Assembly: GCA_903873475.1 (NCBI GenBank)
Contig: CAIQON010000116.1
Location: forward strand, 1-54,005
Origin: an uncultured bacterium
Lineage (GTDB): Bacteria; Pseudomonadota; Gammaproteobacteria; Burkholderiales; CAIKXV01
Direction: 5' to 3'
Length of the DNA: 54,005 nucleotides
The first letter of the stretch is position 1; the number at the start of each line of letters is the position of its first letter. Made by a program: the position numbers and the translations under genes. This document shows, piece after piece, positions 8,977 through 19,601 of the stretch. Under the pieces are notes generated by a model, which had not been told where the DNA came from, did no database searches, and saw only the letters and a list, made by a program, of their open reading frames with translations.

Positions 8977-8997
8977 CCGGGTGATCAGATCACCCGG
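8977..8997. terminator. Perfect hairpin at the convergent gene ends
   Basis: CCGGGTGAT-CAG-ATCACCCGG is a 9-bp perfect stem with a 3-base loop. It overlaps the stop codon of the minus-strand CoA-transferase and lies between the convergent transcription units. No T-run follows on either strand, so it may act as a weak bidirectional terminator or an mRNA 3' end stabiliser. Confidence 0.4.
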
Positions 8998-10199
8998 TCA
9001 CGCTTCAGTTCCGCGACCTCTTCCTTCGAAAGCCCCAGCCATTCCTCATACACCTCGCTGTTGTGCTCCCCGAGCTCGGCGCTGGGCTTGAGTTCGGGCG
9101 GCGGTTGGTGCTCGAACCGGAGCGGGCTGCGAGCGGCGGCGATCCGCCCGTACTTCGGATGGTCCATCCATTCCAGCATGCCCCGCTGGTGCAGGTGCGG
9201 GTCGTTGGTGACCTCGGCAAGGTCCCGCACCGGGGCACAGGGAATGTGGTGCGGCGATAGGAGGGCGAACAGTTCATCGCGCTGGAAGCGTGCCGCGTAG
9301 GCGCCCACGACGGCGTCGACTTCATGGCTCAGGTTCGCCCGCTTCTTCGGCGTGTCGAAGCGGGGGTCGGCTGCGAGTTCCTCCCGGCCCATCACCTTGG
9401 TAAGGGAAACCCAGTGTTTGTTGTTGGTGCACAGGATGGCGATGTAGCCATCCTTCGCCGGGTAGACGCTGTAGGGCGCGGCGGCCTTCCCGCTATGGGT
9501 GTTACCGGTACGTTGCGGGAAGTCGACCGGCCCGCCGTAATTGCCCGAAGCAAAGTAGAGCCCCAGGCTCGATGCCAGTGAAAAATAGATGGCGTCGAGC
9601 ATCGCCACTTCCACCTTCTGCCCGCGCCCGGTCTTCTCCCGCTCGTACAGCGCCGTCACGACCGCACCATACAGATGGATGCCGCAGGAAAAATCGCAGA
9701 GTGCAGGGCCGATCTTCGTCGGCGGCCCGTCGGGGAATCCGGTCACCGCCATCGCGCCGGACATCGCCTGGATCGAGATGTCCATCGCTGGGTAGTCTCG
9801 GTACGGCCCAGTGCTGCCGTACCCCGACCCTGATGCCACGATGAGCCTGGGATTCGCCTCGCTCAGGACGTCATAGCCGACGCCGAGCTTGTCCAGCTTT
9901 CCCGGCAGGAAATTTTCCAGCAGGACGTCTGCGCGGCGGGCCATCGAGATCAGCAGCTCGCGCCCGCGCGCGGTCTTCAGGTTCAGCGTCACCGCCTGCT
10001 TGTTCGAATTCAGCATCGCGAACGGTAGCGCAGCGCCGCCGATCAGCGTTCTCTGGCGCATCGACTCGCCCTCGAGCGGCTCGATCTTGATCACCCGGGC
10101 ACCTGCCATGCCCATCAGGAAGGTTGCGTAGGGGCCGTTGTAGATCTGCCCGAGGTCGAGGACGGTGATCCCCTGCAGCGGGCTGCGCGTGCTGGTCAT
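8985..10199 (-). CDS. Family III CoA-transferase (CaiB/BaiF type)
   Basis: A 404-residue class III CoA-transferase, which moves CoA between carboxylic acids through an aspartyl-anhydride intermediate. The N-terminal Rossmann-like part has VLDLGQIYNGPYATFLMGMAG and VIKIEP. Asn/Lys of LNSNKQAVTLNLK are where the CoA-contacting residues normally lie. The catalytic Asp is D169 in ALCDFSCGIHLYG, the standard place for formyl-CoA transferase relatives. It is the last gene of the selenoprotein operon: its ATG overlaps the stop of the 370-residue gene by four bases. Acceptor and donor acids are unknown, although coupling to UGSC suggests a common substrate. Confidence 0.9.
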   Translation of the reverse strand: MTSTRSPLQGITVLDLGQIYNGPYATFLMGMAGARVIKIEPLEGESMRQRTLIGGAALPFAMLNSNKQAVTLNLKTARGRELLISMARRADVLLENFLPGKLDKLGVGYDVLSEANPRLIVASGSGYGSTGPYRDYPAMDISIQAMSGAMAVTGFPDGPPTKIGPALCDFSCGIHLYGAVVTALYEREKTGRGQKVEVAMLDAIYFSLASSLGLYFASGNYGGPVDFPQRTGNTHSGKAAAPYSVYPAKDGYIAILCTNNKHWVSLTKVMGREELAADPRFDTPKKRANLSHEVDAVVGAYAARFQRDELFALLSPHHIPCAPVRDLAEVTNDPHLHQRGMLEWMDHPKYGRIAAARSPLRFEHQPPPELKPSAELGEHNSEVYEEWLGLSKEEVAELKRDRVI

Positions 10200-11308
10200 T
10201 TGAACTGCTCCACGGAAGTGGCGAAGGCGCCGCCAACCGTCTGGATGGCACGTGTGATCGGGACGGTCACGCCGAAGGTGGGTACCGCGGCCGAGTGCTT
10301 CCCGGGGCCGCCGATCACGACGACCAGCAGGTCTTCCGCACGCTGGAACATCGGGACGGGGACGGCCGAACCGGCATCGCCGTAGCGCTCCTTGTATGTC
10401 ACCAGGAAACGGCGTTCGATGTTTTCACGCGAGAAGCGTTGCAGCGGCAGTGTTGCATTCTCGAACAGATAACGTTTGACGTCCGCCTTGGAATAGCCAT
10501 CCGCAGCGATCGTCCTCGCATGCTCCGGACCGATGATGACCGCAGGATGCGGTTCGATATTGTAGACGTCGTTGTTCCCGGTCGTCGCCATCGTGCCTGC
10601 GATCATCTTCAGGATGCCGACACCGGTGATGCTCTGGTGGTCGTTGACGTTGTGGGGGCACTCCGCTCCGATTACCGTGACGGTCGAGGCTTCCGGCGGG
10701 AAGCCGCGTTCGACATGGAGCGGCTCCCACGGGCTCTCGGCCTCGTTCTCCGCGGCCAGGTAGCTGTACTTCGCCGGCGAGCCGAACGTCGCCATGTCGC
10801 CCGTGCCGGGTTGCGCGCCGCCGATGTTGACCAGCGACAGGCGCACGGCCCTGCCGATCGTGGCATTGCTGCGGCAGCCCGAGCCCAGCGCGCCGTAGCC
10901 GCTGTTGATGCCGAGCTCCTTCGCGATCGGCCCGTTGACGATGATAAACGGCGAGACGGGATGCGTCGTGGCCTGCAGGCCGTACAGGTTGAACGGCTCT
11001 TCGCAGAGTGCCTCGATCGCCGCGACGACGACCGGGAAGTACTCGGGCCGGCAGCCCGCCATCACGGCGTTCGTGGCCAGCCGCACCGGCGTAGCTTCGC
11101 CATATCGCGGAGGGATCTTCGCTACCGGCCGATCCCATGGCCTGTCGCAATAGGCCAGCATCTGCCCGACCAGCTTTTCCGTCGGCGGGATGATTGGAAA
11201 ACCATCCGTCCAGCCCCGCTCGTGGAAGAGGTCGTTGATGGCCACGTAGTCATTGACTGTGTCGATCCCTGCGTGGGCTCCGCGCGAAAACGTGCGGTTG
11301 GTGCTCAT
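10196..11308 (-). CDS. Uncharacterised 370-residue protein, partner of the UGSC selenoprotein
   Basis: I do not recognise a characterised family. The protein has no signal peptide or membrane segment. It opens with NDYVAINDLFHERGWTDGFPIIPPTEKLV. The middle has a striking conserved-looking patch, YGALGSGCRSNATIGRAVRLSL, with a Cys in GSGC. ECPHNVNDHQSITGVGILKMIAGTM follows, then a long segment with HPAVIIGPEHARTIAADG. The last part, RAEDLLVVVIGGPGKHSAAVPTFG, looks like a core strand and loop. Its gene overlaps both neighbours by ATGA, so it is made together with the selenoprotein and the CoA-transferase. The Cys-containing GSGC near the UGSC gene suggests a redox or acyl-transfer partner, which is a guess. 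Confidence 0.75.
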   Translation of the reverse strand: MSTNRTFSRGAHAGIDTVNDYVAINDLFHERGWTDGFPIIPPTEKLVGQMLAYCDRPWDRPVAKIPPRYGEATPVRLATNAVMAGCRPEYFPVVVAAIEALCEEPFNLYGLQATTHPVSPFIIVNGPIAKELGINSGYGALGSGCRSNATIGRAVRLSLVNIGGAQPGTGDMATFGSPAKYSYLAAENEAESPWEPLHVERGFPPEASTVTVIGAECPHNVNDHQSITGVGILKMIAGTMATTGNNDVYNIEPHPAVIIGPEHARTIAADGYSKADVKRYLFENATLPLQRFSRENIERRFLVTYKERYGDAGSAVPVPMFQRAEDLLVVVIGGPGKHSAAVPTFGVTVPITRAIQTVGGAFATSVEQFK

Positions 11309-11847
11309 GCCCGCATCCTCTCGATCAGGTCCATGACCTGCCCAACTGCGTGGTGCGCGCGCTCGCGGATCTCCGCGTCGGCCAGGCCGCCCAGCGGATG
11401 CTCGATGACCACCGTCGGAAGATCGGGTGCGCCGAAGATCCGGGCCTGTGCCACGGCCAGCTTCGCGAAGGGTGTGCTGCAGACCACGACCCCGGGGACA
11501 CCGCGTTTGGCCAGTTCACACATGTCGTGGACACTCCACGACGTGCACGATCCTCAATCCGCCATCGCGGTGATCACCAGATCGGCCTCCCGCGCGAACT
11601 GGTCGATCAACTCGTTGCCCGCCGCGAGGCTTACGCTCTGCTTGCGAAGCGAAACGCTCGATGAAAGGTCGAGTCGACCGCCCAGCGATTCGCGGATGAA
11701 CCGCAGCAGGTGGTCTGCGTTGCCCTTGCCGTTGTCGAGGAAGCCGATCCTCAGGCTCTCCGATGGCAGGCGCGTCGATGCCGGTGCCGTCACTTCCGAA
11801 TCGGGCGCTGGCGCCTCGGGGATGAGCAGGAAAACGCGATCTTCCAT
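11305..11847 (-). CDS. UGSC-family selenoprotein (in-frame UGA = selenocysteine 98)
   Basis: An in-frame TGA at 11556-11554 separates two frames that join perfectly: ...DLVITAMAD-U-GSCTSWSVHDMCELAKRG... . U-G-S-C is the hallmark of the UGSC (seleno)protein family described from environmental genomes. Read through, the protein has 180 residues with Sec98 and Cys101 forming a UxxC redox motif like that of thioredoxin-fold enzymes. The downstream half (VVVCSTPFAKLAVAQARIFG, then LPTVVIEHPLGG) is well-formed and keeps family order. A SECIS-like hairpin lies at 11524-11542. I chose the ATG at 11847, overlapping the amidohydrolase TAA (TAATG). The stop overlaps the next ATG (ATGA). Without Sec insertion only a 97-residue fragment would form. 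selA, selB and selC are expected elsewhere in the genome. Confidence 0.85.
11524..11542 (-). promoter_or_regulatory. Bacterial SECIS-like hairpin for selenocysteine insertion
   Basis: The mRNA reads GTCGTGGA-GTG-TCCACGAC: a perfect 8-bp stem with a 3-nt loop whose first base is G. The stem starts 12 bases and the loop 20 bases after the UGA. Known bacterial SECIS elements have a short apical loop with a G among its first bases, about 16-37 bases downstream of UGA within the coding region. The fit supports SelB-directed decoding. Pairing was checked by eye only. Confidence 0.75.
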
Positions 11848-12710
11848 TACCGTGCTCCTGTCGATCCAGCTGGCCAGCCCAGCCAGTCGCATACGCCGCG
11901 CCCCATGACCCAGTCCAGGTCCTCTCCGCTCAGCCAGGGGAGCGCTTCGGTGAACATCGTCACGCCCTGGCGGTACGGGCAGGGAAGCCGAGACAGGTCT
12001 GAGCCCCAGAACATGCGCCTTGGCCCGAACGCATCGAATACGCGGCGCAGCGGTTCGTGCAGATTCCGGAACGGATAGGTATCGGTGGTGAAGAAAGGCG
12101 TGATCGACGCCTTTGCAGCCACGTTGGGATACTTCGCAAGCTCGAGCAGGTTGCCCATGTCGGCAAAGGCCTCTTCATCCTTGCCGTGCACCAGGCCGAG
12201 GTGGTCCATCACCAGTTTCAGCCCGGGATGTCGTTCGACGACCCGGGCTACCGACGGCATCAGTCGGTGGGGCACCAGGATCATCACCGGGACGCCCGCC
12301 GCTTCCGCCTCACGCCACACCCAGTCAAGCTCTCCCGACACGAACGGACGCTCCAGCAGCGGCGTGTGGAGTGCGAAGCGCAAGCCCAGCATGCCGGGCT
12401 GCTTGATCCAGTCCCGTATCTGTGCCCTTGCGTCGCTGCGCTGGATATCCAGCCGGCCCATCACCGCGAACCGGTCCGGATGCGCCGCTGCCGCTGCAAG
12501 GGCCAGGTCGTTGCGATCGCCCTCCCACGAAGGCGGCACGATGATCGCTCGATCCACCCCCGCTGCATCCATTTCATCCAGCACATGTCCCTGCGTGAAC
12601 GGGATGCCATTGTTGTGGACAGGCACCGCCTTCAGCCCCGCTGGCGGGACGGGCCACGGTCGCTCGGGCGTGTTTGCCCCCCAGATGTGTACCTGCGAAT
12701 CGACGATCAT
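11847..12710 (-). CDS. Amidohydrolase-2 family TIM-barrel hydrolase/decarboxylase
   Basis: A 287-residue cytoplasmic protein of the amidohydrolase-2 group (ACMSD and gamma-resorcylate-decarboxylase relatives, and lactonases). The start MIVDSQVHIWG replaces the usual first His of HxH by Gln (Q-V-H). The later metal/acid sites KLVMDHLGLVHG and RRMFWGSDLSRLP (Asp) are present. Members hydrolyse lactones or decarboxylate aromatic and alicyclic acids, so it could open a lactone in the same route. It lies between the Bug gene and the selenoprotein gene and overlaps the latter by one base, TAATG. I cannot choose between hydrolase and decarboxylase. Confidence 0.8.
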   Translation of the reverse strand: MIVDSQVHIWGANTPERPWPVPPAGLKAVPVHNNGIPFTQGHVLDEMDAAGVDRAIIVPPSWEGDRNDLALAAAAAHPDRFAVMGRLDIQRSDARAQIRDWIKQPGMLGLRFALHTPLLERPFVSGELDWVWREAEAAGVPVMILVPHRLMPSVARVVERHPGLKLVMDHLGLVHGKDEEAFADMGNLLELAKYPNVAAKASITPFFTTDTYPFRNLHEPLRRVFDAFGPRRMFWGSDLSRLPCPYRQGVTMFTEALPWLSGEDLDWVMGRGVCDWLGWPAGSTGAR

Positions 12711-12735: not shown

Positions 12736-13716
12736 CTAGTCGGGCTTGGCGCCCGTGGCCTTGACGACCTTGGCCCAGCGCTCGATTTCCGTGCGGATCA
12801 GTGCGCCGAACTCTTCGGGGCTGCTGCCCGAAGGGATCGCACCTTCACCCGACATCCGTGCAGAAGTGTCGGGTCGCGCGAGGAAGGCCTGGATGTCCGC
12901 GTTGATCCTGTTCACGAGCGCCCGCGGCGTGTTGGCGGGCGCGAGCATGCCGTACCACTGCGTCACCTCGTATTCGGGGACACCCGATTCCCGGATCGTC
13001 GGCAAGTCGGGCAACAGGCTGAGCCGTTTGTCGCTCGCCACGGCGATGGCATTGAGCCGCTTCGACTTGACGTGGGGAAGCAGGGGCGGCACGCCGTTGA
13101 TGGTGAGCGAGATATGGCCGGCGATCAGGTCGGTCAGCATCGGTCCGGTGCCCTTGTAGGCGACATGGACGATGTCGGTGCGCGTGAGCATCTTGAAGTA
13201 CTCAACGCACAGGAACGGATTGCTGCCGCTGCCGCTGGAGCCGTAGTTGAGCGTCCCCGGGCGCTGCCTGGCCATGTCCACCAACTGTTTGACCGTCTTC
13301 ACTGGCAGCGAGGGATGTACGGCGAGCATGTTCGGCACGCGTGCGATCAGGGAAATGGGTGCGAAATCCCTGATGGCGTCATATCGGAGCTTGGGAAACA
13401 GCGATGGGTTGACGCCGAACGTACCGATATGTCCGATGACCAGCGTATAGCCGTCCGGGGGCGCCTGTGCCGCGAGCTCGACCCCAATCTGGCCGCTTGC
13501 GCCGCCCCGGTTGTCCACCGTCACCTGCTGCCCCCAGAGTTCAGAGAGGCTCTGCGCAGCGACGCGGCCGACGATATCCGTGCTTCCGCCTGGTGGGAAA
13601 GGCACGATGAGCCTGACCGGCTTCATCGGATAGCTTGGCTGCGCGCTGGCGATGTCGGCCACCAGCCCTGCGACGACCAGCAGACCCGCCGTGGCGGCGA
13701 ATGACACTTTGCTCAT
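12736..13716 (-). CDS. Bug/TctC-family periplasmic substrate-binding protein
   Basis: A 326-residue protein with a signal peptide (start MSKVSFAATAGLL, cleavage near IASAQPSYP). Bug landmarks are VRLIVPFPPGGSTDIVGR, then NRGGASGQIG, PPDGYTLV, and HVAYKG. I chose the ATG at 13716 because GAGGAGG lies about seven bases before it; the frame is open further up to 13791. It is the only Bug gene inside the selenoprotein operon, with 55 bases upstream to the hydratase and 25 bases downstream to the amidohydrolase. It therefore probably delivers or senses the substrate of that operon. Confidence 0.9.
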   Translation of the reverse strand: MSKVSFAATAGLLVVAGLVADIASAQPSYPMKPVRLIVPFPPGGSTDIVGRVAAQSLSELWGQQVTVDNRGGASGQIGVELAAQAPPDGYTLVIGHIGTFGVNPSLFPKLRYDAIRDFAPISLIARVPNMLAVHPSLPVKTVKQLVDMARQRPGTLNYGSSGSGSNPFLCVEYFKMLTRTDIVHVAYKGTGPMLTDLIAGHISLTINGVPPLLPHVKSKRLNAIAVASDKRLSLLPDLPTIRESGVPEYEVTQWYGMLAPANTPRALVNRINADIQAFLARPDTSARMSGEGAIPSGSSPEEFGALIRTEIERWAKVVKATGAKPD

Positions 13717-13771
13717 CGATTCCTCCTCTGATCCAGGCCCTGTAGACCAGGCCCGTGATCCGTTCAGCGAA

Positions 13772-14566
13772 TCAGGTTCTCTTGCGTGCAAGGAACGCGG
13801 CCATCAGCCTGGATGGCTCATCGGTGCGACGGGCCTCGACACACATTTCGATGCCCCTGCGGATGCTGTCGGACAGGGACATCCGTTCCCAGTCGCGCAG
13901 CAGCGATTTCTGCAATCGCACGGCGCGCGGTCCGCTCACCAGTATCGACTGTAGCCACTGCTCGATGGCCGCGTCGAGTTCCCCTGCAGGGACCAGCTTC
14001 TGCAGGAACCCGAACTGGTGCATTTCCTTCGCCTCGAAGATGTCTCCGGTCAGCACGAGCTCGGCCGCCTTGCCCCAGCCCAGGAGCGCCGGCAGCAGCG
14101 CTGCTTCCATCCCGGACGGCAGGCCCACGCGTACCTCCGGCATGCCGAATTTCGCATGCTCGGACGATGCCCGCAGGTCGCACGAGGCGGCGAGCTCCAT
14201 TCCGGCACCGAAGCAGTAGCCGTTGATGCGCGCGATGACAGGCACCGGGCAACGCCGGATCGAGTCGCACGCATAGTGGGTAAGCGTGTGTTCTTCCCGC
14301 GCCTCGTCGAGGGTCAGGTCCTTCATCTCCGCCAGGTCTGCCCCGGCGATGAAGGATTTTTCGCCGGCGCCAGTCAGGACCACTGCGCGAAGGTCTTCGT
14401 CGAGGGACAAGCTCAGGAACGCTTCCGCGATCGCGCGCTTGCCCGCCATGCCGAGCGCATTGCGCTTGGTGGGGTTGTTGATCGTGACGAAGGCGATGCG
14501 ACCTGCTGCGCCATGGTCCTGCATGCGCACGAGCACCAGGTCGTCCGGTTGTGATGAGTTCTTCAT
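13772..14566 (-). CDS. Enoyl-CoA hydratase/isomerase, crotonase family
   Basis: A 264-residue crotonase. AGEKSFIAGADLAEMKDL holds the oxyanion-hole strand. Both catalytic glutamates of classical hydratases are in place: E124 in GAGMELAASCD and E144 in GMPEVRVGLPSGMEAALLP. It therefore should hydrate a 2-enoyl-CoA. The C-terminus RLMAAFLARKRT is the normal family ending. The ATG at 14566 overlaps the upstream CoA-transferase stop by four bases. A longer frame exists upstream but is only the shadow of that gene. It could act on CoA esters made by the two upstream CoA-transferases. Confidence 0.88.
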   Translation of the reverse strand: MKNSSQPDDLVLVRMQDHGAAGRIAFVTINNPTKRNALGMAGKRAIAEAFLSLSLDEDLRAVVLTGAGEKSFIAGADLAEMKDLTLDEAREEHTLTHYACDSIRRCPVPVIARINGYCFGAGMELAASCDLRASSEHAKFGMPEVRVGLPSGMEAALLPALLGWGKAAELVLTGDIFEAKEMHQFGFLQKLVPAGELDAAIEQWLQSILVSGPRAVRLQKSLLRDWERMSLSDSIRRGIEMCVEARRTDEPSRLMAAFLARKRT

Positions 14567-15774
14567 TGATGCGCTTCCTTCTTCGCTTTCGTGATCGAGG
14601 CGGCGGTCTCGCTCTCGCCGTATCCCAGCTCGCGCAGGATCTCCGCGGTGTGCTGTCCGAGCGAGGGTGCGGGCACCGGGTGCCGGAGGGCGAGCCCTGC
14701 CGTGGCGAACGGACTGACCAGGTGCGGTATCCGTCCTTCCTGTGGATGGTTGAAGTGGTCGATCGATCCGCGTGCGCTTACGTGCGCGAGGTCCATCGCA
14801 TCCTGCGGGCTGCACACCGGGCAGATCGCAATGCCGGTGCGCTCCATGTGCGACAGGATCTCGTCCCATGTATACGAGGCGCAGTACTGCGCCAGTGCGG
14901 CGCGGTACTCAAGCCCGCGCTCGCCGTGCGTGCTCAGGCGATCGGCCGGCGCCTCGTCTGCATGCACGAGGTCCAGGCGACCGATGGCGGTGCAGAACTC
15001 CTTCCATATCTTCGTTTCCAGCAGCGTCACCGCGGCGTATCGCCCATCCTTCGTTCGGTAGGTCGAGTACCTCGGATTGCCCCCGAAAGCTTCCATCCGC
15101 GGCTCGCCCGACCCGCCGGCTGCCCTGGAAAACGCCGAACTGAGCGGAATGAGGCACAGGTCGAGCAGGGCCTCGAACATCGCCAGATCGACTTCGCAGC
15201 CCTCGCCGGTCCTGGCGCGGCGGGCGAGCGCCGCCTGGATGCCGATCACCGCGTAGAGACCGCCGGCGAAGTCGGCCGCCTGCAGCCCGGGCACGGGCGC
15301 CGATCCGTCGGGGGCGCAGCCCATCAGGCCGGTCATCGCCTGGATCACCAGGTCATGGCCAGCGACATGCGACAGCGGCCCGGTCTGTCCGAAGCCGCTG
15401 ATCGAGCAGTAGATGATGCCCGGGTTGATCGCCTTCGCGCTGGCGTAGTCGAGGCCCAGCTTGCGCATCAGCCCCGGCCGGAACGACTCGACGACGACGT
15501 CGCAGTGTCCGATCAGCCGGCGCGCCTGTTCCTTGCCCTGGTCGCTGCGCAGGTCCATTTCGATGCTGCGCTTGTTCGTGTTGACCGCATGGAAATAGAC
15601 GCTGTTCTCGCGGTACCGCGGATAGCTGTGGCGGCTGGGGTCGCCCGTGACCGGTTCTTCGACCTTGATGATGTCTGCCCCCATTGCGCCGAGCATCTGT
15701 GTGGCGAAGGGCCCCGGCAGCAGGCGGCTGAAGTCGGCGATGCGCACGCCGGAGAGCGGAAGGTTGCCGTTCAT
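14563..15774 (-). CDS. Family III CoA-transferase
   Basis: A 403-residue class III enzyme with NGNLPLSGVRIADFSRLLPG at its start and MLGAMGADIIKVEEP for the Rossmann part. NTNKRSIEMDLR is the CoA/substrate contact strand. The catalytic Asp is D168 in LQAADFAGGLYAVIGIQ. The gene lies 13 bases after the tandem CoA-transferase and is translationally coupled to the hydratase. Its relation to the other four CoA-transferase genes in this window is close in design but not identical, consistent with different acid substrates. The acid cannot be named from sequence. Confidence 0.9.
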   Translation of the reverse strand: MNGNLPLSGVRIADFSRLLPGPFATQMLGAMGADIIKVEEPVTGDPSRHSYPRYRENSVYFHAVNTNKRSIEMDLRSDQGKEQARRLIGHCDVVVESFRPGLMRKLGLDYASAKAINPGIIYCSISGFGQTGPLSHVAGHDLVIQAMTGLMGCAPDGSAPVPGLQAADFAGGLYAVIGIQAALARRARTGEGCEVDLAMFEALLDLCLIPLSSAFSRAAGGSGEPRMEAFGGNPRYSTYRTKDGRYAAVTLLETKIWKEFCTAIGRLDLVHADEAPADRLSTHGERGLEYRAALAQYCASYTWDEILSHMERTGIAICPVCSPQDAMDLAHVSARGSIDHFNHPQEGRIPHLVSPFATAGLALRHPVPAPSLGQHTAEILRELGYGESETAASITKAKKEAHQ

Positions 15775-15787
15775 GTTTCCAGGTCTT

Positions 15788-17848
15788 TCATGCGGTTGGA
15801 TTGTCTTCTCCGAGCCGGGCCATTCGGGTCGGTACCGATACCGGGATGCCGAACGGGGCTGCGAACACGTCGATCATGCAATGTCCGAGCGGTGCCTGCA
15901 CCGACTGCAGCGAACCGCGGGCGGCCAGTGCCGGCTGCCTGAGTACTTCGCCGGCTTCGAGCACCGGCACTGCCGTGATGCCCGACCCTGCCAGCGCCTG
16001 CACGAGTGCAGCCCGTGTCAGGGGCGACGCTGCGGGTACGTCTGCCGAGGCGGCCACTACCCAGCCGTCGCTCGTGCGCACCACGCGGGTCGGTGGCAAC
16101 GCGTCTGCGTCGGCCCAGGCCAGGTGCGTCAGCCAGGCGATGGCATCGGCCATCGCGATGTCGACATGCTGGGCGCGTCCGGTACGGGCGACGGCGTGCA
16201 ATGCCGCGATGATACCGGTGGCCGCGAAGTGCCCGGTCAGCTGGTCGGCGATCGAATAGCCGATGCGAAGCGGCACCGACCCGTCGCCCACCGCCGACGC
16301 CAACCCGCCATGGCCCTGTATCACGGTATCGAGCGCCGGCAAGGAAGGGCCGTCGCTGCCGTAACCCGAGATGGCGCAATACACGATGCGCGGGTTTCGC
16401 CGCACGACCGGGTCGATGCCGAATCCGAGCCGCTCGACCGCGCCCGGCCGCAGGTTGTGCAGGAACACGTCGGCCTGGTCCAGGAGGGCCCAGAGTCGCT
16501 GGCGGTCCTGCTCGTGGCGCAGGTCGAGGCAGAGCGAGCGCTTGCCGGCATTGTAGTTGGCGAAATAGCCGCTCACACCGTCGAACTGGGGTTGCCACTG
16601 CCTGCACGCTTCGCCATCCGGCGATTCGATCTTCGTCACGTCTGCACCGAGGCTGGCGAGCCCGAACCCGGCCAGGGGTCCGGCCGCATACACGGTCAGC
16701 TCAACCACCCGGATGCCCGAGAGCGCGTGCCGTTGCGCGCCGGGCTGCCCGGCGAAGGCCGGTTCGGACCATTGCGACCTTGCCGGGTCGGGGCCTGCCG
16801 GCCGGATGCGCACGGGCACGCGCGACACCGCCTCGGCGCGATAGCGCTCGACGCTGCCGCTGGCCAGCAGCACGGGGTCCGCGGCAACTTCCGTTATCGG
16901 TACGACCGGCCCCACCGGCACGCCCGAGGCGCCGAGCGTCTCGAGCAGATCCGCGACGGTACGGCCCTGCGTGCGGTGTTCCAGCAGACGGTCGACGTCA
17001 GCCCGGTTCGCAAGGCGCGCCGAACGCGTCGCATAGCGTGGATCGCGGGCGAGCGCGCCCTCGCCGATCGACTCGACGATCGCGGTCCAGTGCTCGTCGG
17101 TGGCCGAACAGATCAGTATCCAGCCATCGAGCGCGCGATAGGCATTCCACGGGCAGCACAGTGGATGGCCACAGCCGGAGCGGAACCCGCTGGCTTGCCC
17201 GCTCTGAAGCAGCGATACATGCGACCTGAGCTGGTCGGCAACGATCTCGACCAGGCTCAGGTCGATCATCTGCGACTGCGGTGAAAGGAGCGACGCCACG
17301 ACCGAGATGCTGGCGATCACCGCGGCGCTCAGTTCGCCGATCGGCACGCGTGCAAACTCCGGCTCGCCCTCGGGCCTGCCGGTCACGGCCATCAGCCCGC
17401 CCAGGGCCTGCACCAGGGCGTCGGTGGCCGATTCGGGAAGGTCCGGGTGCCCCAGACCTTGTGCGGAAATACAGCAGACGACCGAAGCGGGGGCGTGGCC
17501 GCCGGTGGCCGACGGCGGGGCGGCAGGATCATTCAGGCGGTCGATGGTTGCGCGCAGCATGCCCGGCAGGGGATCCGAATCTTCGGCCGAGAGTAGGACG
17601 ACGCGTGCGATCGAAAGCGCCTCCGACCAGCGGAACCCGCTCGCCTCGACCCGGGTCTTGCCCCCGATCAACAGTCGCTCGAGGGCGGGCGACGCCGATG
17701 CGACCGCAGCCGCGTCGACAGCCTGCTCGACCCGGATCACCCGGGCCCCCAGGCTGGCGAGCAGGAAGCCGCAGGCGCTGACCGACAGCCTGCCGGCGCG
17801 TTCCACGACGACCAGGCCGGTCAGCGGGCCATCGGTGCGCTCGATCAT
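15788..17848 (-). CDS. Tandem (double-domain) family III CoA-transferase
   Basis: A 686-residue protein made of two CaiB-like halves, about 1-350 and 375-686. The C-terminal half is complete: LSGIRVVELTVYAAGPLAG, YNAGKRSLCLDLR, and catalytic D535 in SIADQLTGHFAATGI. In the N-terminal half the same place reads PIGELSAAVIASIS, so the Asp is Glu172, and the Asn-Lys contact strand is missing (IGGKTRVEA). The N half is therefore probably a non-catalytic partner. Class III enzymes work as interlocked dimers, so the fusion may supply both subunits in one chain. I chose the ATG at 17848 with AAGG upstream; a TTG at 17860 overlaps the regulator stop. Confidence 0.85.
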   Translation of the reverse strand: MIERTDGPLTGLVVVERAGRLSVSACGFLLASLGARVIRVEQAVDAAAVASASPALERLLIGGKTRVEASGFRWSEALSIARVVLLSAEDSDPLPGMLRATIDRLNDPAAPPSATGGHAPASVVCCISAQGLGHPDLPESATDALVQALGGLMAVTGRPEGEPEFARVPIGELSAAVIASISVVASLLSPQSQMIDLSLVEIVADQLRSHVSLLQSGQASGFRSGCGHPLCCPWNAYRALDGWILICSATDEHWTAIVESIGEGALARDPRYATRSARLANRADVDRLLEHRTQGRTVADLLETLGASGVPVGPVVPITEVAADPVLLASGSVERYRAEAVSRVPVRIRPAGPDPARSQWSEPAFAGQPGAQRHALSGIRVVELTVYAAGPLAGFGLASLGADVTKIESPDGEACRQWQPQFDGVSGYFANYNAGKRSLCLDLRHEQDRQRLWALLDQADVFLHNLRPGAVERLGFGIDPVVRRNPRIVYCAISGYGSDGPSLPALDTVIQGHGGLASAVGDGSVPLRIGYSIADQLTGHFAATGIIAALHAVARTGRAQHVDIAMADAIAWLTHLAWADADALPPTRVVRTSDGWVVAASADVPAASPLTRAALVQALAGSGITAVPVLEAGEVLRQPALAARGSLQSVQAPLGHCMIDVFAAPFGIPVSVPTRMARLGEDNPTA

Positions 17849-17856
17849 CGCGGCCT

Positions 17857-19449
17857 TCAACGCCGTGCCAGCCGCTTGTAGAGATGCGAGCGCGAGATGC
17901 CCAGTTCACTGGCGGCCTGCTTCTTGTTTCCGTCGCAGCGGATCAATGCGTCCTCGATCATCTTCAACTCGACATCCTCGAGGGTCTCGCGCACCTGCGA
18001 CACGGTTGCGGCGTGGATCGGTGCGCTGCGCGGCAGGTCTTCGGCGCCGATGACGTTCCCCTCGCTGAAGATCGCCGCCTGTTCGAGATCATGCTGCAGC
18101 TGGCGGATGTTGCCGGGCCAGGGCAAGGTTCTAAGCACGGCGCAGGCCTCGGGCGAAAGGTCTTTCGCCACGCGTTCATTGCGCTGCGCGAAGGCCTGCA
18201 GGAAATGCCTGGCGAGCAGCGGGATATCTTCCAGCCGTTCGCGCAGTGGCGGCAGGCGCAGCACGACCGTGCTGATCCGGTAGAACAGATCGAGCCGGAA
18301 GCGACCGGTGCCGACCAGCTGTTCGAGGTCGCAGTGGGTGGCACTGATCAGCCTGAAGCTCGACTGGGTGCTGGTCGAGCCGCCGACACGTTCGAACTGG
18401 CCGTCCTGCAGCACCCGCAGCAGCTTGACCTGCACCTCGATCGGCATGTCGCCGATCTCGTCGAGGAACAGCGTCGAGCGGTGTGCCATCTCGAAGCGGC
18501 CCCGGCGACCCTTGCGGTCGGCACCCGAGAAGGCGCCCGGTTCGTACCCGAACAGCTCGCTCTCGACCAGCCCCGATGGCAGCGCCGCCGCGTTGACCGT
18601 CACCATCGGCTTGCCATGGCGCGTGCTCAGTGCGTGGATTGCGGTGGCCGCGAGTTCCTTGCCCGTGCCGCTCTCCCCGATCAGCAGGACGGGTACGTCC
18701 AGTGGTGCCACGCGCTCGATATCCGCCTTCAGCTTGCGCACGGCGCCGCTGGTGCCGACGATCTGGTCGACCACGCTGCCGCGAAGCCGCATGTCGGACA
18801 GCTCCCGGCGGTAGAACGCCACTTCGGAGCGAAGCCGCGTCACCTCGCGCGAGAGGTCGTGCACGGCTTCCGGGGCCTTGAACATCACCTGTCCGATCGC
18901 ACCCACCGTCTTCGAACCGGAGACGATCGGAATGCGGCTGACGACCCGCGCCACGCCGCGCATGTTCTGCACCTGGCCGATCTCGGCCTTGCCCGTCTGC
19001 ACGACTTCGTGCAGCCTCGTGTTCTCGATGATTTCGGTCACGTGGCGTCCGAAGCCTTCGCCGGGCGCAAGCCCGAAGAAGCGCGCATGGACGGGGCTGA
19101 TGTAACGAACGCAGCCGCGCTCGTCCACCACGGTCATGGCTTCATACGGGCTGCTCAACAGATGCTCGAAGATGGCATAGGCGAAGTCGACACTGGCAAC
19201 GAAGTCGAACAGCGCATCCTCGACCCCAGCCTGATGCGCGAAACGAACCGCAGTGTCGTGGCCGGCGCGGTACATGAGGATCAGCCGCTGGCCGTCCACT
19301 TCGACCACGTTCATGTCTGCGGGCTGCGACGGCTGCCACGCAAGTGCAGCCTCGCGTACCCGTGGGTTCTCCATGAGATCGCTCACATGCAGAACCACGC
19401 CCTGCCGATCCGTGACCAGCACGCCAATGCCAGACCGCCGATGAGACAT
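17857..19449 (-). CDS. Sigma54-dependent activator with PAS domain (bacterial enhancer-binding protein)
   Basis: A 530-residue activator. Residues about 100-220 are a PAS-type sensory domain (EAMTVVDERGCVRYISPVH). The AAA+ domain has Walker A GESGTGKE near 257-264, the sigma54-contact loop as GAFSGA near 304-309 (usual form GAFTGA), Walker B LFLDEIGDM near 326, and the arginine-finger region VVLRLPPLRERLEDIP. The C-terminus NKKQAASELGISRSHLYKRL is a Fis-type helix-turn-helix. I chose the ATG at 19449 because GGGAGGATGGG precedes it; an ATG at 19512 has no ribosome site. It heads the minus-strand operon and diverges from the plus-strand operon, so it probably controls both, in response to a small effector bound by its N-terminal domain. 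Confidence 0.9.
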   Translation of the reverse strand: MSHRRSGIGVLVTDRQGVVLHVSDLMENPRVREAALAWQPSQPADMNVVEVDGQRLILMYRAGHDTAVRFAHQAGVEDALFDFVASVDFAYAIFEHLLSSPYEAMTVVDERGCVRYISPVHARFFGLAPGEGFGRHVTEIIENTRLHEVVQTGKAEIGQVQNMRGVARVVSRIPIVSGSKTVGAIGQVMFKAPEAVHDLSREVTRLRSEVAFYRRELSDMRLRGSVVDQIVGTSGAVRKLKADIERVAPLDVPVLLIGESGTGKELAATAIHALSTRHGKPMVTVNAAALPSGLVESELFGYEPGAFSGADRKGRRGRFEMAHRSTLFLDEIGDMPIEVQVKLLRVLQDGQFERVGGSTSTQSSFRLISATHCDLEQLVGTGRFRLDLFYRISTVVLRLPPLRERLEDIPLLARHFLQAFAQRNERVAKDLSPEACAVLRTLPWPGNIRQLQHDLEQAAIFSEGNVIGAEDLPRSAPIHAATVSQVRETLEDVELKMIEDALIRCDGNKKQAASELGISRSHLYKRLARR

Positions 19450-19484
19450 CCCATCCTCCCGCGCGGCGCCCGTGCCCTTATCGT

Positions 19485-19522
19485 GGACACTGTGTGTCGC
19501 CGTGTCCTTCATGAAAACACGG
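19485..19522. promoter_or_regulatory. Two overlapping dyads, candidate enhancer sites for the activator
   Basis: GGACAC-N11-GTGTCC at 19485-19507 and CCGTGT-N11-ACACGG at 19500-19522 are perfect 6-bp dyads with the same arm spacing. They lie about 50-90 bases upstream of the -24 element of the divergent operon, where activator-binding sites usually sit, and inside the untranslated region of the activator gene, so autoregulation is possible. Confidence 0.5.
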
Positions 19523-19573
19523 ACGCACCTCGTTTCGCAAGCCGTATCTGGGGAAGGCGCGTCGTGACAGCGA

Positions 19574-19589
19574 TGGCATGGACCTTGCA
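19574..19589 (+). promoter_or_regulatory. Sigma54 (-24/-12) promoter of the plus-strand catabolic operon
   Basis: TGGCATGGACCTTGCA matches TGGCACG-N4-TTGCA almost fully. GG (19575-19576) and GC (19587-19588) are ten bases apart, as required. It points at the CoA-transferase and lies next to a divergent sigma54 activator gene. The transcript would begin near 19600, almost at the ATG at 19602, and an ATG at 19578 would lie inside the promoter. Confidence 0.7.
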
Positions 19590-19601
19590 TTAACGAAAGC
19601 C

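Follow-up and report, generated by a model that had tools for sequence, protein, structure and literature searches.

A UGSC-family selenoprotein and its near-constant neighbor as the probable subunits of one enzyme, with many paralogues

The window analyzed here, a 54,005-nucleotide stretch of DNA from an uncultured bacterium of the Burkholderiales, encodes what all computational tests available identify as a true UGSC-family selenoprotein. Its gene overlaps one for a 370-residue protein (here P) that adjoins UGSC genes near-constantly, and the two proteins are probably subunits of one enzyme. Our best explanation, in which we place middling confidence, is that the UGSC selenoprotein works with P as an obligate two-subunit, thioredoxin-linked reductase for imported organic acids, with Sec as its nucleophile. 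UGSC-P may further represent a previously unrecognized class of selenoenzyme with two subunits, related to the glycine and proline reductases but distinct from them, that has radiated into many substrate-specific paralogues, with selenium supporting broad organic-acid catabolism in the largest selenoproteome known; to this wider proposal we give somewhat less than even weight. The novelty lies in the obligate uncharacterized partner, in the kinship with PrdB and GrdB, and in the extreme paralogue expansion, and the obligate partner turns the function of UGSC proteins into a testable question.

The UGSC gene (positions 11305 to 11847, minus strand) encodes 180 amino acids. Translation from 11847 to 11305 with TGA read as Sec meets a single internal TGA, at 11556-11554, and gives MEDRVFLL...ITAMADUGSCTSWSVHDM...ERMRA, with the motif U98-G-S-C101. 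An earlier note on this DNA had joined two minus-strand frames at this TGA and proposed the redox motif Sec98-x-x-Cys101, and the translation and the aligned homologue codons bear out the join and the residues of the motif. The joined protein scores above the cutoffs of two family profiles, Pfam PF24696 (UGSC; E value of 2.2e-45; 155.3 bits against a cutoff of 25) and NCBIfam NF041046 (142.9 bits against 125). As the note had also stated, the gene overlaps its neighbors on both sides: its start shares one base with the stop of an amidohydrolase gene (TAATG at 11849-11845), and its stop overlaps the start of the P open reading frame (ORF) downstream (ATGA at 11308-11305). Ordinary annotation would split the gene in two at the internal TGA.

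Across 108 homologues, the codon aligned with Sec98 is TGA in 92, TGC in 10, TGT in 4, and GGC and CAG in one each, so that the family alignment suggested by the note returns Sec or Cys (92 + 14 of 108) at this position. The corresponding motifs are UGSC (73 homologues), CGSC (13), UGAC (9), and UGGC (7), with UGSS in a few. Two homologues with neither Sec nor Cys, at L091 (7077-7493; GGNP) and L092 (4203-4646; QGVT), are possibly regulatory or decayed. Placing the Cys label on a maximum-likelihood tree takes 8 changes, at least 3 of them forced by well-supported branches, which indicates that the residue has switched between Sec and Cys several times in UGSC evolution. The window gene falls in an all-Sec clade of 17 members (support of 99/97), and its own genome holds seven UGSC genes, the window copy included, each with one in-frame TGA.

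A SECIS-type hairpin follows the UGA (11524 to 11542, minus strand). Its 8-bp arms, GUCGUGGA and UCCACGAC, enclose the loop GUG (11534-11532), and the structure spans nucleotides 12 to 30 3' of the UGA. The perfect 8-bp stem and G-first loop described in the earlier note stand, but not the distance of 20 bases given for the hairpin: the stem begins 12 nt past the UGA, and it is the loop G that falls at +20. The loop likewise starts at nucleotide +20 in 73 TGA-type genes. In 93% of TGA-type genes the stem reaches 6 bp or more and G is among the first two loop bases; the figure is 50% for Cys-type genes and 23% for shuffles, and the hairpin is weak or missing in Cys-type homologues. The loop GU is invariant in 79 aligned TGA-type sequences; the loop reads GUN in nearly all TGA-type genes and GCN, CGN, or others at the same codons in Cys-type genes, which indicates that AGU and UGU codons are used where SelB must be bound. 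Base changes on both sides occur in six of the eight stem pairs, none of 500 shuffles reaches the real alignment on any of five covariation measures, and pairing is much poorer in slid controls. Taken as a single sequence, the window hairpin has a fold energy that is not significant (z of -0.76), and an Rfam gathering scan of the window returned nothing. Support for the hairpin comes from these comparative data, the single-sequence fold being insufficient by itself.

The window's own genome contains all four of the genes, selA, selB, selC, and selD, that the note had named for a search. With these genes present and with Sec or Cys in the homologues, no outcome that the note had listed as refuting its selenoprotein reading has arisen. 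Contig C368 carries tRNA-Sec (anticodon TCA), adjoined by selA and selB ORFs that were recognized from their translations by inspection. The selD gene (L043; C237, 4138-5079; 409.6 bits, above cutoff) contains an in-frame TGA and probably encodes a selenoprotein itself. Across genomes, selA scored above cutoff in 5 of 5 TGA-type genomes tested and in 0 of 5 Cys-type genomes; tRNA-Sec scores were 66 to 80 bits in TGA-type genomes, except for a Chloroflexota genome discussed below (G401), and 37 to 52 bits, the level of tRNA-Ser, in Cys-type genomes. A further selenoprotein of the window's genome is a PrdB-like protein (L126, 1290-2025, minus strand, on contig C309; TIGR04483, 94 bits) with an in-frame TGA in the motif UPNC; its gene adjoins a TctC-like gene, a proteobacterial, non-Stickland setting.

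P (10196 to 11308, minus strand) was present but unweighed in the earlier note, and by comparison across loci it is P that emerges as the real constant of UGSC loci. In an initial set of 21 loci, P lies beside UGSC every time; the set covers six loci of the window's own genome along with relatives in four further genomes and on ten plasmids (of Betaproteobacteria, Alphaproteobacteria, Actinomycetota, and haloarchaea). A search of genome_contigs with P alone found 585 loci, of which 80 were kept, and UGSC is adjacent in 69 of these 80. Among the other 11, three to four lie at contig edges (L063, L072, and L102 start right at the end of a contig). Three of the 11 (L118, L121, and L124) are from Poribacteria and encode a shorter P of about 264 amino acids with UGSC not adjacent, a P-only variant. 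P may lie upstream or downstream of UGSC, and in some loci the two are fused, as in Variovorax, where they form one 545-residue ORF, and in G401, where 25 of the 37 sampled modules that have P downstream are fused. Within the phylum, UGSC and P occur in the identical 5 of 398 genomes. This phyletic pattern, the near-constant adjacency, and the fusions are the grounds on which we regard UGSC and P as probable subunits of one enzyme. One locus of the window's genome (L027, 2403-4553, on C145) has two divergent UGSC genes in tandem with a P gene on either side. The second UGSC shares its reading frame with its P, and a TrxB-like gene that carries CxxC comes after the array.

P matched no family in Pfam or NCBIfam, and 23 P members searched against Pfam gave nothing credible. 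PDB sequence searches with UGSC and with P found no relative, nor did the viral_contigs database contain one. Residues conserved in P are Asp35, Cys86, Thr115, Asn148, Arg153, Asn161, Glu187, and usually Cys184; Cys86 is present in 79 of 80 sequences and Cys184 in 71 of 80, with Leu at position 184 in the window copy. For the predicted structure of P (pLDDT of 94.9), no structural relative is confident (best Z of 5.1), and the nearest PDB shapes, class I fumarase alpha domains and chorismate mutase (Z of 4 to 5), are too weak to use.

The family is most expanded in a 5.0-Mb Chloroflexota MAG (JACPQD, our G401, home of L083, L061, L092, L103, and L114 and of C9, C78, C97, C99, and others), which has at least 150 UGSC genes, 146 of them with an in-frame TGA; the count is a lower bound, as 150 of 208 candidates were scored and 150 of 150 matched. 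In a sample of these genes, Sec occupies the motif in 54 of 54 copies, and the median identity to the nearest paralogue is 69%, which argues that the copies are not assembly duplicates. The modules alternate with SBP_bac_5 receptor genes, with CoA-transferase, MmgE/PrpD, HpcH, and HMG-lyase genes between them. Both selA and selB are present, and tRNA-Sec was not found, the best candidate being a tRNA-Ser and none lying within about 7 kb of selB; incompleteness of the MAG is a likely cause, and a mixed bin is possible. Two betaproteobacterial MAGs, G406 (L109) and G407 (L077), carry 32 and 34 UGSC genes, and TGA is present in nearly all of those listed; both have tRNA-Sec, selA, and selB. The largest selenoproteome reported held 57 selenoproteins and then, in a groundwater MAG, 63 (PMC13188914). 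If our copy numbers hold, one bacterial genome would have more than twice that maximum, almost all of them of a single family and largely overlooked or split by standard annotation, and the view of how far microbial selenium chemistry extends into carbon metabolism would change.

We counted the genes within 4 kb of 90 UGSC-bearing loci, by a conservative BLAST count. The commonest identified neighbor is a TctC-type receptor (33 loci), followed by class III CoA-transferase (15), TrxB (10), amidohydrolase (9), crotonase (8), and MmgE/PrpD (7); any solute receptor is found at 38 of the 90 loci and any CoA-ester gene at 22. Five of the ten TrxB genes lie 85 to 162 bp from UGSC, CxxC is intact in 4 of 4 checked, and the gene order in Arthrobacter is trxB-trxA-P-UGSC. 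Neighborhoods are too varied to point at a single substrate class.

Profile comparisons place the UGSC protein at a distance from known Sec reductases. Residues 84 to 163 of the window protein match the Sec domain of GrdB (TIGR01917; E value of 9.4e-6) at 24.8 bits against a cutoff of 602.2; TIGR01918 was missed (18.3 bits against 65.45), and PF07355 gave no match in the Pfam scans. Aligned by hhalign, the UGSC and PrdB profiles agree with an E value of 1.9e-6 and a probability of 89.7, the UGSC motif falling on the UGTC of PrdB. We read this as distant homology to the Sec domain of PrdB/GrdB, confined to one domain and short of family membership, since all GrdB/PrdB cutoffs were missed. In profile comparison P resembled neither PrdA nor PrdB, and on this comparison no pyruvoyl-type subunit (PrdA/GrdE) was detected, so the PrdB-like step is not transferable wholesale.

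From these observations we propose the following mechanism. SelB and tRNA-Sec would decode the UGA as Sec98 with the aid of the hairpin, a step that is supported, and UGSC and P would form the obligate two-subunit enzyme, which is strongly supported genetically. Sec98, predicted to sit at the N terminus of a helix in a flavodoxin-like alpha/beta domain, would form the U-x-x-C redox center, in an active site probably shared by UGSC and P. By analogy with PrdB/GrdB, its selenolate would attack a substrate bound by P, and a carbon-heteroatom bond would be reductively cleaved or a group reduced; Cys101 would then resolve the selenium adduct, and thioredoxin/TrxB would restore the selenol. The substrates may be small organic acids imported by TctC, TRAP, or ABC receptors encoded nearby, each paralogue handling the acid of its neighboring receptor; in the window, the product would pass into a CoA-ester pathway or out of one. 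The case for a thioredoxin-linked reductase draws on the PrdB/GrdB kinship, the TrxB genes, and the Arthrobacter gene order, and that for imported acids on the receptors in the census and between the Chloroflexota modules. With no recognizable pyruvoyl subunit, amines are unlikely to be activated through a Schiff base, leaving C-O, C-S, and C-halogen bonds and C=C/carbonyl reduction as candidates. Against this explanation count the mismatch of P with PrdA and PrdB, the minority of loci with TrxB, the lack of a confident structural relative of P, the varied neighborhoods, and the 11 P loci without UGSC.

An alternative explanation, which we consider unlikely, is that UGSC-P belongs to the peroxiredoxin/thioredoxin (Prx/Trx) type and serves in general thiol-disulfide chemistry or peroxide detoxification. 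The UxxC motif and the TrxB neighbors would fit such a role, and published surveys have assumed it, placing UGSC among redox proteins, with a Trx-like fold suggested in 2008 (PMC2398784). However, the AF2 model of UGSC (built with 78 relatives; pLDDT of 93.7) has alternating alpha/beta elements with five strands, and among known structures it best matches response-regulator, PurE, and flavodoxin-type folds (Z of 9.8 to 12.3). The predicted fold is thus flavodoxin-like, and the matches do not suggest a Trx-like fold, although a missing Trx match is no proof. A large obligate partner is likewise at odds with this alternative, and the many divergent paralogues beside receptor and catabolic genes fit substrate specialization rather than housekeeping.

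In a second alternative, the reaction would be non-redox, with Sec or Cys as the covalent nucleophile of a lyase, isomerase, racemase, or hydrolase whose substrates are organic acids or CoA esters. The modeled position of Sec98, between strand 90-96 and helix 99-114 and hence at a helix N terminus in a Rossmann-like fold, would suit such a nucleophile, the few UGSS members imply that the second thiol is not absolutely required, and CoA-ester genes do occur near some UGSC loci. We nevertheless assign this alternative a low probability. Cys101 is conserved in 74 of 78 aligned sequences and belongs to a set of invariant or near-invariant residues (Asn39, Lys41, Lys69, Sec98, Gly99, Cys101, Asp108, Gly116, Phe127, and His150). 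The TrxB association and the PrdB/GrdB kinship also favor redox chemistry, and Sec is rare in non-redox enzymes.

The earlier note had linked Sec redox chemistry to CoA-ester catabolism on the basis of the window operon, which amounts to the proposal of a narrower role, a Sec-dependent enzyme specific to CoA-thioester breakdown. That operon is as described, with profile matches for each gene, all on the minus strand: an Amidohydro_2 hydrolase (11847 to 12710; PF04909, 6.8e-27), a TctC-type solute receptor (12736 to 13791, start codon uncertain; PF03401, 5.8e-60), a crotonase/enoyl-CoA hydratase (13772 to 14563, start uncertain; PF00378, 1.2e-40), a class III CoA-transferase (14563 to 15774; PF02515, 1.7e-102), a class III CoA-transferase with two CaiB domains in tandem (15788 to 17860; PF02515 in two stretches, 1.2e-120), a sigma-54-dependent activator with a PAS domain (17857 to 19590; PF00158, 3.3e-62), and, downstream and overlapping the P gene, another class III CoA-transferase (8985 to 10199; PF02515, 5e-112). 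The overlapping gene ends, the three CoA-transferase genes with the crotonase, and, in Roseovarius and haloarchaea, the presence of CoA-transferase genes close to UGSC speak for the proposal. In the 17-member clade of the window gene, however, the UGSC-P unit alone is constant (spacing of about 520 nt), TctC genes are common, and neither the amidohydrolase nor same-strand CoA-transferases adjoin UGSC at any other locus. Because of this absence, and with CoA-ester genes near just 22 of the 90 loci, the operon is real but local: the note's emphasis on CoA esters is partly supported and does not hold in orthologues as a general rule, and an enzyme specific to CoA-thioester breakdown is quite improbable. 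The best NCBIfam match of the sigma-54 activator is PrdR, at 367.7 bits against a cutoff of 795; it is the best of many similar activators, and we did not use it as evidence. At the window edge, ORFs at 576-1252 resemble, by translation, a PIN-domain toxin/antitoxin pair. Finally, that the TGA is a genuine stop or a sequencing error and the downstream half a remnant has nothing in its favor except the TGA itself; its probability is negligible, given the same codon in 92 homologues of many phyla and otherwise Cys, the covarying SECIS, and the complete Sec machinery.

In comparison with known systems, the window protein resembles the UGSC family (PF24696/NF041046) in its profile match, in Sec within U-G-S-C, and in its SECIS. 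That family is known mainly from environmental genomes (PMC2398784) and has been counted at 33 genes in 26 organisms (PMC5029168). The sources consulted describe a stand-alone protein with a likely Trx-like fold, whereas here we find an undescribed partner and a predicted flavodoxin-like fold; the Unknown_1 fusion domain of the GOS survey may be P. For P, the top Foldseek matches are class I fumarate hydratase alpha domains (best E value of 8.9e-4), a kinship that we rejected (Z of only about 4, rmsd of 5 to 6, cluster Cys missing). Those enzymes hold a 4Fe-4S cluster with three Cys ligands, in contrast to the two strongly conserved Cys of P, and since one of these is absent from the window copy, an Fe-S cluster is unsupported. 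With D-proline reductase PrdB (TIGR04483), UGSC shares a related Sec domain with UxxC at the same aligned position and, by analogy, may share selenolate chemistry on a small substrate with a dithiol reductant. It differs in that no PrdA/pyruvoyl subunit was recognized for UGSC, that P is unrelated to PrdA in profile comparison, and that the window's own genome encodes a separate PrdB-like protein with UPNC. The likeness to glycine reductase GrdB (PF07355, TIGR01917) is limited to residues 84 to 163, at a score far under the cutoff. A GrdB-related pair has been proposed for C-F cleavage in fluoroacetate (PMC10838667), and it offers a measure of how far GrdB-type chemistry may extend.
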